Below, one piece after another: positions 3,100 to 60,056 of a stretch of 64,000 bases of DNA. The stretch comes from Lewinellaceae bacterium (lineage in GTDB: Bacteria > Bacteroidota > Bacteroidia > Chitinophagales > Saprospiraceae): NCBI GenBank assembly GCA_024644235.1, contig JAHELJ010000001.1, positions 113,556-177,555 of the forward strand. Direction: 5' to 3'. Positions within the stretch are counted from its first letter, which is position 1, and each line of letters starts with the position of its first letter. The translations under genes were made by a program, and so were the position numbers. The notes under the pieces were generated by a model. That model saw nothing but the letters and a program-made list of their open reading frames with translations. It had not been told where the DNA came from and made no database searches.

Positions 3100-5984
3100 T
3101 GGATCAAGATTGGCTTTCCATGTAGTAATAATGTTGAACCCGATTCGATGATGTGGAGATGCTTCACATTTTCAGTCTGGTAGTCGGTAACTTCTATGCT
3201 GGCGGGTCCATAAGTTGGTTTTTTTTGAAATGCCGTGAAACCCACAGTGGTGTTATGAATTTCGATATAGTCAATAGTAAGAGTCGATTGATCTTTCGAG
3301 GCTACGCCAGTTGCTGCTGAGATAATCTTTGCCTCATGGACATGTACGTAAGACCGTTCTCCTACTGAAATACCTTTATCACCAATTGCCTCCATTTGCA
3401 CATTCTTCACGGTGACGGTGCTCCCTGAGAAGTCCATCGCGTCATTACCGGTATTTCGAAACCAGGAAGATTCAACGTTTCCCTTGCAGAAATCTGCATC
3501 AAAGGCGTCGAATGCCGTGTTTTGAAACAAACAGTTGCGAATGGAAAAGTCACTGCGGATAATATTCAGTGCGTCCTCTTCCTGACTGTTGGAAAAATGA
3601 CAATGACTCCAATCTGAGGATGACTCATACAGATTGACTCCACCGGTAAGGATGTAGGCCTCATGATCTAGGGTTCCAAGATTATCGAAATGGGTGTGGG
3701 AAAAGTAAGATGGTTCCTTCGCTTGCATCACTATCAGTGATCCGGAGCCGTCTGAAGAATGAATCACGATGTGATCTTCATCATCTCCTCTAGAATGAAT
3801 GGCCGAGCGTGAGTAGATGAATGCTCCACTGACAATGTCAATCTTTGTGCCTGACGGGATCACCACCGTGAAGCCATCAGGTATCACGAGGGGAGTATCA
3901 AGTGTCCCACTTCCTAAAATAATTTCCTTTTCAAGTACATCACAGAGGGGATGAGTAGTGTAGTTGCTTGTCAGACCGGATGAGGGCATTTTAACAGCTT
4001 CCCAAGGTTCAATTCTCAGTGTGTAGGAGCTGTCGAGTCCTGGAATGCTATAGTAGATTCTACTGGGAGCGAATGGTAAATCGAGGGTGTAGCCCCGTAC
4101 TGATTGAGCTTTGGGTTGAACCCAAACGGGGTCTATTTGGGTGTATGATCTGGCATCTGAATAGATACCGGTGATTTCTATTGGGACCCGGTGATTGTTC
4201 AGAATTTCGACTGATTGGTGTCGGTCGGGGAGGAGCGAAGCACGTACCGAGGTCTGTTCATATGGAAGAATATTAGCTCTGACAACTTGGGCCCTCTGCA
4301 GAATTTCATGGATGTCGAAATAGTATTCCGGATATTCATTGTTCAATTCTTCCTGGTAATGTCTGGTCTCCCCCTCTATTTCATTTATGAGGCTTCTCAC
4401 GTAGTCCTCATGAGTAAAGGCAAACAGTGCAGCTAAATAGTGTGTCATAATTTCGGGATCCTGAAAGAACCTGTTGAACGGTTCGAAGCTTGGTGTTTTG
4501 TTTTGATAGGATGCATCTGCGATCAGTTCGGCTCCTGCAAATAATATCGGCTCTTCTGTTGTGAAGCCATCAAAACCGATTGGCTCCAACCGGTCAGTCA
4601 CGGGATTGTAGTACCATCGTTGATTGTGCCATGACAGGCTGTGATAGGCTTTAGTGAGGTCGACAATAGCCAGATATCTACCGAGCAGTCTGGAGTCGAT
4701 GAATTGGTGTAAAGGTTGAGTCCCGTACTTATATGCCAACATAAGTTGTGAAGCTCTTTTAAAATGACTGGACAACAGGGGTGATTCCAGCGTCTGGTTC
4801 TCATTAAAGGATTCGATTGCAGCGCTTTGAAAGGATTGTTCGTGTTCAAGTTCATCTGAAAAGATGAAATTGTTCTTGCCCCCAGATGCAAATTGTCTTC
4901 GCACTCCCTGCCAAAATCGCTCCTCACTGAATTTGACAATTACGCCTTCTCTCCGATCTTGTTTTTCAACCAGCTCCTTCTCAAAATGCTCCTCAACGGC
5001 GTATAATCCCAGAAATTTACCATTTAGATGGACAGATGAAAATCGGTACTTCGGACTTAGAATGTCCTCCCGAAGAAGCCATTGGTGGTAGATCCATTCA
5101 CGTAGAAATCCTCGTGTTTCCGGAGTCTGAACACTGAACTCCCTCATACCCCAGAGCCCATCGTCCATTTTGATACGAAATGACCATTTATCTCGCCTCA
5201 GATGATCCAGCCAGTCTCCTTTCAATCGAATCTTAGCCGAGTGAGTTTTCTCACCCTCAGTAATTTCTGCGGCTACCCAGGAATCGTTAGTGGTGATCAA
5301 TAGCCCCTCTGACCAAGCTCTGTCCCTTTTCGTCTGCAATGTCTTCAAATCATTCTCCGACACCCGGATATGAATTGCGGGAGTTTCATTAGAGAAGTCC
5401 TTGGCTGAAAGTATGGACCTCTCCAAAGTCAAATCGTCAAAATATACGTCATCAATTACGTCAGTGACGTGACAGTAAACCTTGATGGTATCTACAATTC
5501 GGGGCACCTGTAGCATGATCTCCAGCTTTTTCCAACCCTTGACATCGGTGTGGTTAGACACATCAGTAGCCTGATAATAGATTTTTGAATCTTCGCCCGT
5601 CGCTACTAAAAATGCTGGTGTGCCAGCAGGATTGTACGTCCAAACCGACAGTTTCAATTCTTCTCGATGATCAACCGGCATCAGAAATTCAAGCCCGAAG
5701 CGTTGGTTAGCGTTCAGGACCATCGAATGGGTACCACTTCTGGCATATTGATTACTCCTATTGAAAGCCCCTTTGAGTCGCAGGTCTTTACAAAAGAAAA
5801 AATCATTCTCCCATGTCTCCAAATCACAACGAAAGAGAATTCGAGACTCACGCTCTGCGCTACCTATGTCTCTGCTTTCATTGATCGAGAGCATCACTAG
5901 GATGAGTCCAGCAAAAGGCGTCAGCCAAAGCAGATTTTTCAAAACGAATTTGATGCCGCCAGGCGAAGCTCCTTTCAGGATCAT
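3096..5984 (-). CDS. CotH kinase family protein with C-terminal beta-helix
   Basis: The 962-residue protein has a membrane anchor at about residues 13-33, a jelly-roll carbohydrate-binding-like region at about 45-195, a CotH domain at about 200-560, and a C-terminal right-handed parallel beta-helix at about 700-950 (repeated short strands such as NCLFQNTAFDAFDADF and SSWFRNTGNDAMDF). CotH proteins are atypical protein kinases in spore formers; here GLYAVEEHFEKEL and HNQRWYY are recognisable, while the usual WDLD-type motif reads FDGF, so catalysis is uncertain. Most of the protein should be outside the cytoplasm. It overlaps both neighbours (DUF4956 upstream, VTC downstream) by four bases. 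Confidence 0.85.
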   Translation of the reverse strand: MILKGASPGGIKFVLKNLLWLTPFAGLILVMLSINESRDIGSAERESRILFRCDLETWENDFFFCKDLRLKGAFNRSNQYARSGTHSMVLNANQRFGLEFLMPVDHREELKLSVWTYNPAGTPAFLVATGEDSKIYYQATDVSNHTDVKGWKKLEIMLQVPRIVDTIKVYCHVTDVIDDVYFDDLTLERSILSAKDFSNETPAIHIRVSENDLKTLQTKRDRAWSEGLLITTNDSWVAAEITEGEKTHSAKIRLKGDWLDHLRRDKWSFRIKMDDGLWGMREFSVQTPETRGFLREWIYHQWLLREDILSPKYRFSSVHLNGKFLGLYAVEEHFEKELVEKQDRREGVIVKFSEERFWQGVRRQFASGGKNNFIFSDELEHEQSFQSAAIESFNENQTLESPLLSSHFKRASQLMLAYKYGTQPLHQFIDSRLLGRYLAIVDLTKAYHSLSWHNQRWYYNPVTDRLEPIGFDGFTTEEPILFAGAELIADASYQNKTPSFEPFNRFFQDPEIMTHYLAALFAFTHEDYVRSLINEIEGETRHYQEELNNEYPEYYFDIHEILQRAQVVRANILPYEQTSVRASLLPDRHQSVEILNNHRVPIEITGIYSDARSYTQIDPVWVQPKAQSVRGYTLDLPFAPSRIYYSIPGLDSSYTLRIEPWEAVKMPSSGLTSNYTTHPLCDVLEKEIILGSGTLDTPLVIPDGFTVVIPSGTKIDIVSGAFIYSRSAIHSRGDDEDHIVIHSSDGSGSLIVMQAKEPSYFSHTHFDNLGTLDHEAYILTGGVNLYESSSDWSHCHFSNSQEEDALNIIRSDFSIRNCLFQNTAFDAFDADFCKGNVESSWFRNTGNDAMDFSGSTVTVKNVQMEAIGDKGISVGERSYVHVHEAKIISAATGVASKDQSTLTIDYIEIHNTTVGFTAFQKKPTYGPASIEVTDYQTENVKHLHIIESGSTLLLHGKPILIQ

Positions 5985-12379: not shown

Positions 12380-12796
12380 ATGAAACAGGTATCCATCATT
12401 ATCTCATTTTTCTTCTTCGCGGCTTCGACTGGATTACAAGCCCAAAACTGTAGCTCCTACAAGAAAATGCATTGCGATAGTTATGCGAAGAAAAATTGCC
12501 TAAAGTCTACAGCGGCAATTGCAGCATCTCTAGATGAAAGCATTCTTAAGGTTTTTGACGAAGCATCGTCTGAAACCAAGTACATTAGAAAGACAGAATG
12601 CAGCATCACAGGGAGCACCTCTTATGAGGATGTGAAGTTTGATAAGAGTGGAGGAAAGTTTGTCACTGCGAAGAAATGCGATCCCTCACAGTGGTATCGC
12701 TGCTCAAGCAAGAAAGTTGCGAACTGCATGGTTCAGTGCTTGCAATCGCTGGCTACCAGTGAAGTAGCTGTATCAGAAAAAAAGCAAAGAACATAA
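12380..12796 (+). CDS. Secreted cysteine-rich protein of unknown function
   Basis: The 138-residue product has a signal peptide (first ~22 residues, ending LQAQ) and eight cysteines in the mature part, at residues 24, 32, 40, 74, 100, 108, 116 and 120. The first three and the sequence 100-108-116 each follow a C-x7-C-x7-C spacing. The protein is Lys/Ser rich and probably helical. It could be disulfide-bonded or metal binding; no family is recognised with certainty. It is a single-gene unit: a divergent lipoprotein/protease operon lies upstream and a strong terminator follows 24 bases after the stop. Confidence 0.75.
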   Translation: MKQVSIIISFFFFAASTGLQAQNCSSYKKMHCDSYAKKNCLKSTAAIAASLDESILKVFDEASSETKYIRKTECSITGSTSYEDVKFDKSGGKFVTAKKCDPSQWYRCSSKKVANCMVQCLQSLATSEVAVSEKKQRT

Positions 12797-12820
12797 AGGA
12801 ACAACCAACACTTAATAAGA

Positions 12821-12856
12821 GCCCCGGTGGTATAGCTCCGCCGGGTTTTTATTTTT
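12821..12856 (+). terminator. Intrinsic terminator after the Cys-rich gene
   Basis: CCCGGTGG, a seven-base loop and CCGCCGGG form an eight-pair stem with one G-T pair, followed by TTTTTATTTTT. It lies just after the Cys-rich gene and its T-run overlaps the last codons of the convergent gene on the other strand. Confidence 0.88.
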
Positions 12857-13112
12857 CCAGCCATTCCAGTTCGAGATCTTCACTAAACATCTTGATAACT
12901 ACGGCCACTTTGTTGTCTGATTTGAAAGCAGAGGCTAACTCAGTCTTAAGCACGTTCATAACGGTATCAAATGGTCCTGTCATTTGAGTACTCATGGAGT
13001 TTGTCTTGATCTTCAACTCCTTGTGTGACCTAAGATTTTGAATGAAATCCAGAATAATAGGCCCGAAGTGTGAATTCAACGGATAAAGACTGATTTCAAC
13101 AGTGACTTGCAT
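12849..13112 (-). CDS. YkoF/MTH1187-like thiamine-binding domain protein
   Basis: At 87 residues this is a single ferredoxin-like domain of the thiamine-binding (YkoF, DUF77, MTH1187) family: it begins MQVTVEISLYPL, then FIQNLRSHKELKIKTNSMSTQ and the conserved TGPFDTVMNVLKTE stretch, ending with the strand KVAVVIKMF. Relatives bind thiamine or its pyrimidine part or act in unknown metabolite sensing. It is a cytoplasmic protein, alone in its unit. Its stop codon sits inside the terminator T-run of the opposite gene. Confidence 0.82.
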   Translation of the reverse strand: MQVTVEISLYPLNSHFGPIILDFIQNLRSHKELKIKTNSMSTQMTGPFDTVMNVLKTELASAFKSDNKVAVVIKMFSEDLELEWLEK

Positions 13113-13174
13113 ACCTGTGGATAAATTTATGGCCTGTAGAAGTCCGTTTTCTAGGATTCCTCCATTTTTGGCAA

Positions 13175-13182
13175 TATATTTG
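13175..13182 (+). promoter_or_regulatory. Candidate -7 box (TATATTTG) for a small RNA
   Basis: TATATTTG fits the Bacteroidota TAnnTTTG box. No good TTTG is found at the ideal upstream distance, only a T-run at about 13147-13150. Transcription would start near 13188 and run rightward to the terminator at 13339-13377. Confidence 0.35.
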
Positions 13183-13187
13183 TAAAA

Positions 13188-13377
13188 AGATTAATTAGTT
13201 AATATTAAATATAATATTGACTGCGTTATTGAACCAACCCATTAGTTAAATGGTTTAACTTTAAACGATTGAATTAGTTACTCTTAGGAGTGTTTACTAT
13301 AAAGATGTAGTTTTCTTATTTTGAGACCTTAGTCGAATAGCCCGAATTTGAAACGTCAAAGTCGGGCTTCTTTTTTT
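13188..13377 (+). ncRNA. Candidate unannotated small RNA (~190 nt)
   Basis: This stretch between two leftward genes has no reasonable reading frame on the plus strand, yet it ends in a strong plus-strand terminator that no plus-strand gene needs: the nearest upstream plus gene, at 12380-12796, has its own terminator. A TAnnTTTG box lies just before it. The body is AT-rich with a possible local hairpin around CCATTAGTTAAATGG. It does not look like tmRNA, 6S or SRP RNA. It could also be the 3' end of a longer antisense transcript. The 5' end is inferred from the box and is approximate. Confidence 0.4.
13339..13377 (+). terminator. Orphan rightward intrinsic terminator
   Basis: AGCCCGA and TTTGA arms pair with TCAAA and TCGGGCT around an AACG loop, giving a 12-pair stem with a single mismatch, followed by TCTTTTTTT. 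On the opposite strand there is no T-run after the stem, so it works rightward only. It lies 19 bases beyond the stop of the leftward MlaF-like gene. Confidence 0.88.
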
Positions 13378-13396
13378 CTGAAAATCAGGGTAACGA

Positions 13397-14158
13397 CTAT
13401 GCCTGCAGAGCGGAATCTCTGAGGCGTTGCAAGAAGGGTGAAGCGAAAATAAACTCCTGCAGAATCTGATTGTCACTAGTGAGGACTTCATCCTTATTTC
13501 CTTTCCAGGCAAGCTCTCCCATAAAAAGCAAATTGATGCTGTCCCCCACCTCCATCACGGAATTCATATCATGAGTGTTGATGACGGTTGTTATATTGTT
13601 TTCAACCGTGATGCTTCGGATAAGATTGTCGATAAGGATCGAGGTCTTAGGATCAAGTCCTGAATTTGGTTCATCACAAAACAGATACTTTGGATTCAAC
13701 ACGATAGATCGTGCGATGCCTACCCGTTTTTGCATCCCTCCACTCAGTTCGGATGGGTATTTCTCGTTGTTTCCGGCGAGATTTACTCTTTCAAGACAGT
13801 TGTTTACACGGTTTAATTTCTCCTTTTTGGTCAAGTTGGTAAACATATCGAGGGGAAAGCGAACGTTTTCCTCAACTGTCATGAAGTCAAAAAGTGCCGA
13901 ACCTTGAAACAACATACCAACATCCATCCTGACTTCACGGATTTGTCTCTTTGTCAGTTCCAGGAAGTTTACATTGTCATACCAGACTTCTCCCTTTGTG
14001 GGATCCAGAAGTCCTGCTATGATTTTTAAGAGTACAGTTTTACCTGCTCCACTGCGACCTATTATCAGATTGGTCTTGCCCGCTTCAAAATCGATACTGA
14101 TGTCTTTTAGAACCTCTGTGTCACCAAAGGATTTGTAGATATTTTTTGCTCGGATCAT
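13397..14158 (-). CDS. ABC transporter ATPase, MlaF-like (lipid transport)
   Basis: The 253-residue protein is a complete ABC ATPase: Walker A GRSGAGKT at residues 34-41, Q-loop at LFQG, signature LSGGM at 138-142, Walker B with CDEP near 161-164, and the H-loop His at 196. It resembles MlaF/Ttg2A, which powers phospholipid movement between the two membranes together with an MlaE permease and an MCE (MlaD) protein. The permease gene is directly upstream with a four-base overlap. No MCE gene is next to it in this window. Confidence 0.9.
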   Translation of the reverse strand: MIRAKNIYKSFGDTEVLKDISIDFEAGKTNLIIGRSGAGKTVLLKIIAGLLDPTKGEVWYDNVNFLELTKRQIREVRMDVGMLFQGSALFDFMTVEENVRFPLDMFTNLTKKEKLNRVNNCLERVNLAGNNEKYPSELSGGMQKRVGIARSIVLNPKYLFCDEPNSGLDPKTSILIDNLIRSITVENNITTVINTHDMNSVMEVGDSINLLFMGELAWKGNKDEVLTSDNQILQEFIFASPFLQRLRDSALQA

Positions 14159-59649: not shown

Positions 59650-60053
59650 AAGCTACAGGGAGCTCTATCGCGTTTTGGCGGAGATTTGCCGGCAGAATGA
59701 GGAAAATCCGGACAACGTAGAGCACCGCACCATCTAACGGATGGGTCCCGTCATATGACGGGAACAGAAAGTGTCGCAGAAACTATACCGCCTTGCTACG
59801 GTGAGGTAAGGGTGAAAACGTGCGGTAAGAGCGCACGTCTTGTGATGGTAACATCGCAGGAGGATAAACCTTGCGGGTTGAAATGCCACGTATATTTCGC
59901 TCTACCCTCGGGTAGGAAGGGTTGCTCGCCCAACGATCAGCAATGACAGCGGAAGGGGTAGGCAGATAGACCATCTTCGTGAGGAGATGGCTAGATAAAT
60001 GATAGAGGATCGCCTTAGGGTGATTACAGAATCCGGTTTACATCCCTGTAGCA
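59650..60053 (+). ncRNA. rnpB: RNase P RNA, bacterial type A
   Basis: This RNA is the catalytic part of RNase P, which matures tRNA 5' ends. The ends pair exactly: GCTACAGGGA at 59652 with TCCCTGTAGC ending at 60052 form helix P1. Conserved core pieces are present: GAGGAAAATCCGGAC (CR I), CAGAAACTATACCGCC, GGTAAGGGTGAAAACGTGCG with GGTAAGAGCGCAC, and the 3' element TTACAGAATCCGG. Length, about 400 bases, is normal. It lies on the plus strand between a divergent kinase and a convergent GH113-like gene whose stop begins four bases later. ORFs that cross it are not genes. Confidence 0.95.
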
Positions 60054-60056
60054 TTC

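Follow-up and report, generated by a model that had tools for sequence, protein, structure and literature searches.

The trans-acting sRNA DicF of E. coli lowers the ftsZ product by covering the ribosome site of the message. In Klebsiella pneumoniae, ftsZ is the target of DinR, which comes from the end of the dinI mRNA (PMC10907235), and in Rhodobacter sphaeroides the sRNA StsR acts on dcw leader RNA and can alter division (PMC8307010). Rfp18 of Flavobacterium psychrophilum is reported to target metalloprotease mRNAs through a third stem-loop (PMC9723704).

Here we describe a locus within a 64,000-nucleotide stretch of a 5.63-Mb draft genome (the window) that probably encodes a ~190-nt trans-acting sRNA of a new Saprospiraceae family, pairing with dcw mRNA and chiefly with ftsL and ftsW. 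We are close to certain that the predicted RNA gene is real, and we consider predicted pairing of its core with the dcw messages likely, with no data in cells; that the regulation would take the form of repression is an inference we favor more cautiously. In the absence of transcript or expression data, it is only inferred that the RNA is transcribed, that it pairs and represses in cells, and that it influences division. The features of the locus are as follows.

12849-13112, minus strand: leftward ORF with a Pfam Thiamine_BP match, one flank of the RNA locus
13152-13155, plus strand: weak -33-like element TAGG, where relatives have TT(T/G)G; placed 20-23 bases ahead of the box by an alignment of 79 boxes
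13175-13182, plus strand: -7 promoter box TATATTTG (TAnnTTTG) of Bacteroidota type, from sequence; enriched in related loci and kept in close relatives
13189-13378, plus strand: predicted small RNA of ~190 nt, both ends inferred from promoter and terminator positions and conservation
13196-13223, plus strand: predicted 5' hairpin, poorly conserved, from the fold only
13279-13292, plus strand: short variable hairpin just upstream of the core, from the fold and RNAalifold with 6 relatives
13307-13334, plus strand: conserved core GTAGTTTTCTTATTTTGAGACCTTAGTC, 28 nt, the proposed pairing region, from conservation and complementarity to the ftsL and ftsW leaders
13325-13344, plus strand: 20-nt uninterrupted complement of the ftsW leader (17 Watson-Crick and 3 G-U pairs, counted by hand)
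13339-13378, plus strand: intrinsic terminator (12-pair stem at 13339-13368 plus T-run), from the fold and covariation across 81 members
13397-14158, minus strand: MlaF-like ABC ATPase, convergent with the RNA and beside an MlaE permease, from ORF and Pfam

The first-pass annotation of this DNA had pointed to a 12-pair plus-strand terminator with a T-run, lying between two leftward genes with no plus-strand gene for it to serve, to a TAnnTTTG box about 160 bases ahead of it and to the lack of a sensible reading frame, and had proposed an independent RNA of about 190 bases unlike tmRNA, 6S or SRP RNA. This description held up: the 12 pairs lie at 13339-13368 between the ORFs at 12849-13112 and 13397-14158, no plus-strand ORF of 60 or more amino acids overlaps 13170-13380, stops interrupt all three plus frames across 13189-13379, and the TATATTTG box sits 157-164 bases before the terminator stem. 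The independent RNA is further supported by the promoter, the core, the covarying terminator and the recurrence of these, identically ordered, across many genera. The core and its targets had not been seen in that annotation. Elsewhere in the window, at 12380-12845, a plus-strand ORF of 138 aa that matches no Pfam family precedes a clear 8-pair terminator (12823-12845), and ORFs like it are found upstream of the RNA in three loci.

The terminator stem comprises 7 and 5 pairs flanking one mismatch, with the loop AACG, and is followed by T, C and then seven T (13371-13377). Its hairpin folds at -16.0 kcal/mol; 500 dinucleotide shuffles averaged -5.8 (sd 2.3), and not one was as low. A simple terminator scan of the window, which returned five sites, omitted this hairpin, we believe because the stem is interrupted. 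The first-pass annotation had suggested comparing relatives for covarying stems, and the terminator stem does covary: 11 of its 12 pairs show two-sided changes in the 81-member alignment, with 140 two-sided changed cells vs 30.8 (sd 6.5) when shuffled, and the signal was lost when the partner was slid. The alignment was fitted to the structure, which biases it towards covariation.

The promoter was assessed in 139 related loci with 400 bases of upstream sequence. TAnnTTTG occurred at -170 to -100 from the core in 45 of them, compared with 9.8 (maximum 19) in 200 mononucleotide shuffles, and alignment of 79 boxes located at -170 to -30 is the source of the TT(T/G)G element; TAGGA is retained at the -33-like position in four close relatives, and the promoter and pieces of the 5' half are likewise kept among close relatives. 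A second group of boxes lies -65 to -30 from the core in 22/139 loci, about 40 bases before it. The existence of two box positions among members suggests that the length of the RNA varies: the box position fits ~190 nt in the window's clade, some other members would be shorter, and the 5' end remains inferred. The fold of 13180-13379 was better than those of 199 of 200 shuffles, and the 33 nt upstream of the core were also more stable than their shuffles, with a mean z of -1.04 over 112 members (control stretches, -0.10 to -0.40). Judged by sequence only, then, the locus is an independent transcription unit with its own promoter and terminator.

The first-pass annotation had also stated that conservation confined to the hairpin would refute its proposal. 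When 13100-13400 was compared by BLAST with 40 genomes, including its own, nine matched, and the eight non-self matches covered a short stretch just upstream of the terminator, some reaching into it; the most conserved part falls outside the hairpin. The core GTAGTTTTCTTATTTTGAGACCTTAGTC is present in a single copy in its genome at up to 3 mismatches. A covariance model built from 9 sequences matched 126/298 family genomes at E<=0.01, and a model built from 81 sequences found core and terminator in 138/298 at E<=0.001, representing 57 of 112 genera (the weakest of the 138 may be chance matches, as the E-values are rough). The layout common to many genera runs from the promoter, through a 5' part that varies and a core that barely changes, to the covarying terminator. 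Some genomes with a consensus copy also carry a second, divergent core-plus-terminator (L117, L118 and L123).

Outside the family, a class-wide draw gave matches in 77 of 395 genomes at E<=0.01, 73 of them out of family. The six best class-level matches outside the family lack the 28-nt core and are terminators after gene ends, though L254 and L255 among them match about 14-15 bases of the first part of the core; the other 67 out-of-family matches had lower scores and were neither read nor counted. Weak matches in other families of the order were likewise left uncounted, and the core was absent from both that were fetched (L128 and L130). A scan of named genomes with the core pattern returned at least 119 stretches. 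Among the matches listed, the record titles named Saprospiraceae, Saprospirales or less exactly named Bacteroidota, including Membranihabitans, Portibacter, an Aureispira MAG and Candidatus Parvibacillus, with two exceptions, an 'uncultured bacterium' (L159) and a Candidatus Paceibacterota (L247), the latter probably a mis-binned Saprospiraceae contig. From the titles of these named records we infer that the carrier family is Saprospiraceae. A phage origin was considered and rejected, as the core pattern had no matches in viral contigs.

No Rfam family exceeded its cut-off at the RNA locus; the sole match in the window was a bacterial class A RNase P RNA at 59652-60056 (plus strand, 231.6 bits). 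Rfam scans of twelve other members returned tRNAs only, and low-threshold scans at the RNA gave chance-level matches only. Among these was suhB/mmgR (RF00519; 14.2 bits, E 2.3, cut-off 41), which is alike in plan, with a hairpin, an open stretch and a terminator, and which we regard as a chance match. A tmRNA or tRNA was excluded by the lack of any ARAGORN or Rfam match at the RNA, and 6S RNA (6S-Flavo, RF01685) by the lack of a match in the window, the best in the genome lying on another contig at 27.5 bits vs a cut-off of 85. Within the open-access collection searched, no item united the whole words 'Saprospiraceae' and 'sRNA', or 'Bacteroidota', 'sRNA' and 'ftsW', a scope that leaves out papers beyond that collection as well as older names. 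Our best reading is that the predicted RNA would constitute a new family of Saprospiraceae that is absent from Rfam.

One frame of the core forms a short run before a TGA, raising the possibility that the locus is a short gene encoding a conserved peptide. An in-frame start precedes the stop in 38 of 133 members, with a median of 9 codons, and conservation extends to every base of the core; with so few starts and such uniform conservation, we rejected the coding peptide and hold this explanation to be very improbable. In four loci (L113, L114, L115 and L124), the TAG stop codon that closes an upstream ORF (C-terminus ...KRKK or KKM) marks the start of the core, and in that lineage the RNA may, to judge from this arrangement, derive from the 3' end of the mRNA of that ORF.

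The neighbors of the RNA recur. An MlaF-like gene adjoins it in 50 of 126 loci, with 42 of those copies downstream and convergent; an MlaE gene is nearby in 40/126; and tRNA-Leu(GAG) lies within 1.5 kb upstream in 46/130, with two further loci having it downstream. These recurrent neighbors point to vertical descent of the RNA. The frequency of a downstream, convergent mlaF, together with a near-symmetric A/T-flanked stem in some members, would fit a two-way terminator serving mlaF and having no RNA function of its own. Such a terminator would leave the invariant 28 nt, the promoter enrichment and the loci without mlaF unexplained, and, read on the reverse strand, the stem in the window is not followed by a T-run, so we give this explanation very little credence. 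That the RNA ends in a terminator is also compatible with a leader or attenuator of the downstream gene. The downstream gene is convergent at 89 of 126 related loci, indicating that the RNA is not its leader, and no co-directional gene is shared; this explanation is scarcely tenable.

Genome-wide searches gave no enrichment of seed sites. A first scan for seeds found 50 vs 45 sites, and exact 11-mers against the 5' half of the core in five whole genomes gave 48 matches (five of them the gene itself) vs 72 for the reversed control. A 21-nt full-length antisense pattern allowing up to 3 mismatches matched once, at the RNA gene itself, in 13 of 14 genomes and did not match in the other; a full-length antisense target was rejected, there being no near-full ungapped site besides the RNA gene itself. 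A wobble-coded 28-nt pattern, applied to the window's own genome and seven relatives, gave 12 non-self places vs 13 for the control, and none of them resembled a shared start-region target. The dcw lead came from reading individual places: among 30 of the 48, three places belonging to three genera begin 12-20 bases ahead of an ftsW start codon, and among 30 of the 50 for the other half of the core, one starts 24 bases before an ftsL-like gene. The lead was thus found post hoc, and the larger test set described below includes the lead genomes. The dcw gene names used here are presumptive, assigned by sequence and by dcw gene order, without a family search.

Carriers and non-carriers were hand-picked from the earlier lists, and FtsW was located in 80/80 genomes. 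Two with partial FtsW matches (G154 and G103) were excluded, giving 78 dcw regions, from 47 carriers, 8 divergent-core genomes outside the 47 and 23 non-carriers. We placed ftsL in 42 of the 47 carriers; where murD lies outside the cluster (e.g., G000), the murD and murE labels fall on one ORF. On the mRNA strand of the carriers' dcw regions (47 genomes, 845 kb), exact AAGAAAACTAC occurred at 19 sites, with none on the opposite strand and none in the 23 non-carriers (419 kb) or the 8 divergent-core genomes. The reversed AAGAAAACTAC control gave two on the mRNA strand and one on the other in carriers, one in non-carriers and none in divergent-core genomes. By our arithmetic, the density of AAGAAAACTAC in carrier dcw regions is ~27 times that of five whole genomes. 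Ungapped scores of at least 36 were reached at 15 sites vs 0.8 expected (maximum 5 in 40 dinucleotide shuffles), with none in non-carriers; at a score of at least 30 the excess was smaller (60 vs 15.1, maximum 36), and one mononucleotide shuffle also gave 60. By gene, z in the start region (-60 to +35) was 5.7 for ftsL, 3.0 for ftsW and 2.1 for ftsZ, and in the narrower -60 to +3 range 3.5 for ftsW, 2.5 for murD and 2.3 for ftsL.

Duplex energies, computed for 12 genes (murC lay outside this test) with each carrier's own core and expressed as z from 15 shuffled core sets, set the same genes apart: ftsW -14.9, ftsL -12.8 and ftsZ -4.8, the remaining nine being ftsA at -2.2, murE at -1.9 and seven between -1.0 and +2.4. 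Only the core-bearing segment of the RNA is complementary to the ftsL and ftsW leaders, with values of -5.75 and -4.62 kcal/mol below shuffles; in four other segments they ranged from -0.56 to +0.15. An ftsL or ftsW duplex was found at -22, -25 and -28 kcal/mol in 31, 23 and 17 of the 47 carriers vs 6, 2 and 0 of the 23 non-carriers (Fisher 0.002, 0.001 and 0.0006), with the caveats that related genomes are not independent and that non-carriers were scored with the consensus core. The predicted RNA therefore carries, in statistical terms and for ftsL and ftsW, a conserved region complementary to mRNAs encoded elsewhere.

Among strong duplexes (-25 kcal/mol or lower), 12 of 13 for ftsL and 6 of 7 for ftsZ overlap -35 to +16, as do 5 of 16 for ftsW, the other 11 lying at -187 to -74; some of the ftsW duplexes fall within the end of murD (e.g., G171). 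The pairing sites sit in different places across genera. Across 36 strong duplexes the whole 28-nt core is used, with each base paired in 0.69-0.92 of them, and engagement of the full core would explain its invariance. High-scoring sites in murG (+549 to +557, 12 genomes), late ftsI and rsmH (+600) were set aside as possible coding coincidences because they lie in conserved codons.

An ftsL or ftsW duplex at -22 kcal/mol is absent from 16 of 47 carriers. That the core is nearly invariant even though many carriers have no strong dcw site, and that no genome-wide duplex-energy scan stands behind the dcw ranking, leave room for an sRNA that is real, acting in trans or by binding protein, but has its main targets elsewhere, its dcw pairing being minor or limited to some lineages. 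The ftsL/ftsW signal is gene- and core-specific, and the dcw sites are differently placed in different genera, both of which count against such an sRNA; we judge it unlikely, though the most serious competitor to pairing chiefly with ftsL and ftsW.

Co-change of core and sites was examined in 11 genomes with altered cores. In four (G101, G190, G182 and G075, the first two of the same genus), the altered core was clearly the best in its own dcw region, with, for example, 53.5 for the own core vs 42.5 for the consensus, and in the other seven (G093, G275, G105, G076, G120, G109 and G084) it was not. For G101/G190 and G075, the co-change sites fall within coding sequence (ftsI, murG). Of 13 consensus-core genomes in the same comparison, 5 had the consensus core in first place, alone or tied. 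This evidence for core-dcw pairing is suggestive only.

In the window's own genome, ftsW is separated from mraY by a 298-base gap and has a TATATTTG box to itself. At L336:10188-10485 and in L339, murD was not found between mraY and ftsW, and a separate leader with a promoter box precedes ftsW. In the window's genome this leader includes CGGGTTATTCGACTGAGGTT (L336:10330-10349), 137-156 bases upstream of the start codon, which is predicted to pair with 13325-13344, a segment that includes the clade's GAATAGCCCG; part of GAATAGCCCG, and the last 6 nt of the segment, also belong to the 5' arm of the terminator. This duplex has an energy of -35.4 kcal/mol (-27.4 with the consensus core), and none of 400 shuffles was as low. 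The relative G126 retains the site with changes, at -33.6 with its own core and -29.9 with the consensus. The two half-sites, one of them TAGAAAACTAC at -191, are arranged in the reverse of the order that a single continuous ftsW duplex requires, and no convincing site was found at ftsL of the own genome. A coding stretch of rsmH is nearly as strong as ftsW here (-35.1 vs -35.4) and stronger in G126 (-33.8 vs -33.6). This stretch (L336 near 4586-4618, L339 near 4665-4697) complements the 3' part of the core with a bulge and encodes what we take to be a conserved motif of RsmH; the complementarity is either a conserved-codon coincidence or a hint of the origin of the core.

What the sequences themselves show is an RNA gene, its conservation, a covarying terminator and complementarity specific to the core and to particular genes. 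In the mechanism we propose, the RNA would be transcribed from a promoter of its own and would stop at its own terminator, and the near-invariant core of ~28-36 nt, between the short hairpin and the terminator, would base-pair with dcw mRNA, chiefly at the ftsL start region and the ftsW leader and perhaps also at ftsZ. Where the core covers a start region, ribosomes would most likely be blocked and translation lowered; binding far upstream, as in the own-genome ftsW leader, may work via leader structure or decay. We offer more tentatively, as a conjecture that could fall either way, that the RNA is a dedicated Saprospiraceae division riboregulator in which one fixed core of ~30 nt acts on several dcw messages, setting the septal synthase and its partners together, with sites that shift by genus.

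Saprospiraceae are common aquatic and wastewater bacteria, and the RNA may be an unrecognized control on their cell division. The gene was first noticed only through a promoter box and an orphan terminator, and its target signal can be read in division genes that are essential. If the proposal is correct, it would provide a handle on the control of septation in Saprospiraceae and a natural experiment, with carriers and non-carriers in one family and lineages that differ in core and site.

Our data suggest that the window RNA bears some likeness to each of three described systems. With Rfp18 (PMC9723704) the likeness is one of kind: a conserved sRNA of Bacteroidota, independently encoded, strongly structured by prediction and with targets in trans. 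Like StsR (PMC8307010), it would be an sRNA that pairs with dcw cluster RNA and affects division. The StsR site is the dcw 5' UTR, and UpsM made from it, of an alphaproteobacterium, whereas the window RNA has its signal within the cluster, at ftsL and ftsW, and the two showed no homology; pairing of the StsR type at the head of the dcw cluster was not supported (mraZ start region, z -0.3). Like DinR (PMC10907235), it would act in trans and reduce a division protein by occupying a ribosome site, and the block we propose at the ftsL and ftsW starts is modeled on that of DinR at ftsZ. Unlike DinR, which acts on ftsZ and comes from the end of an mRNA, the window RNA appears to have a promoter of its own and points mainly to ftsL and ftsW.
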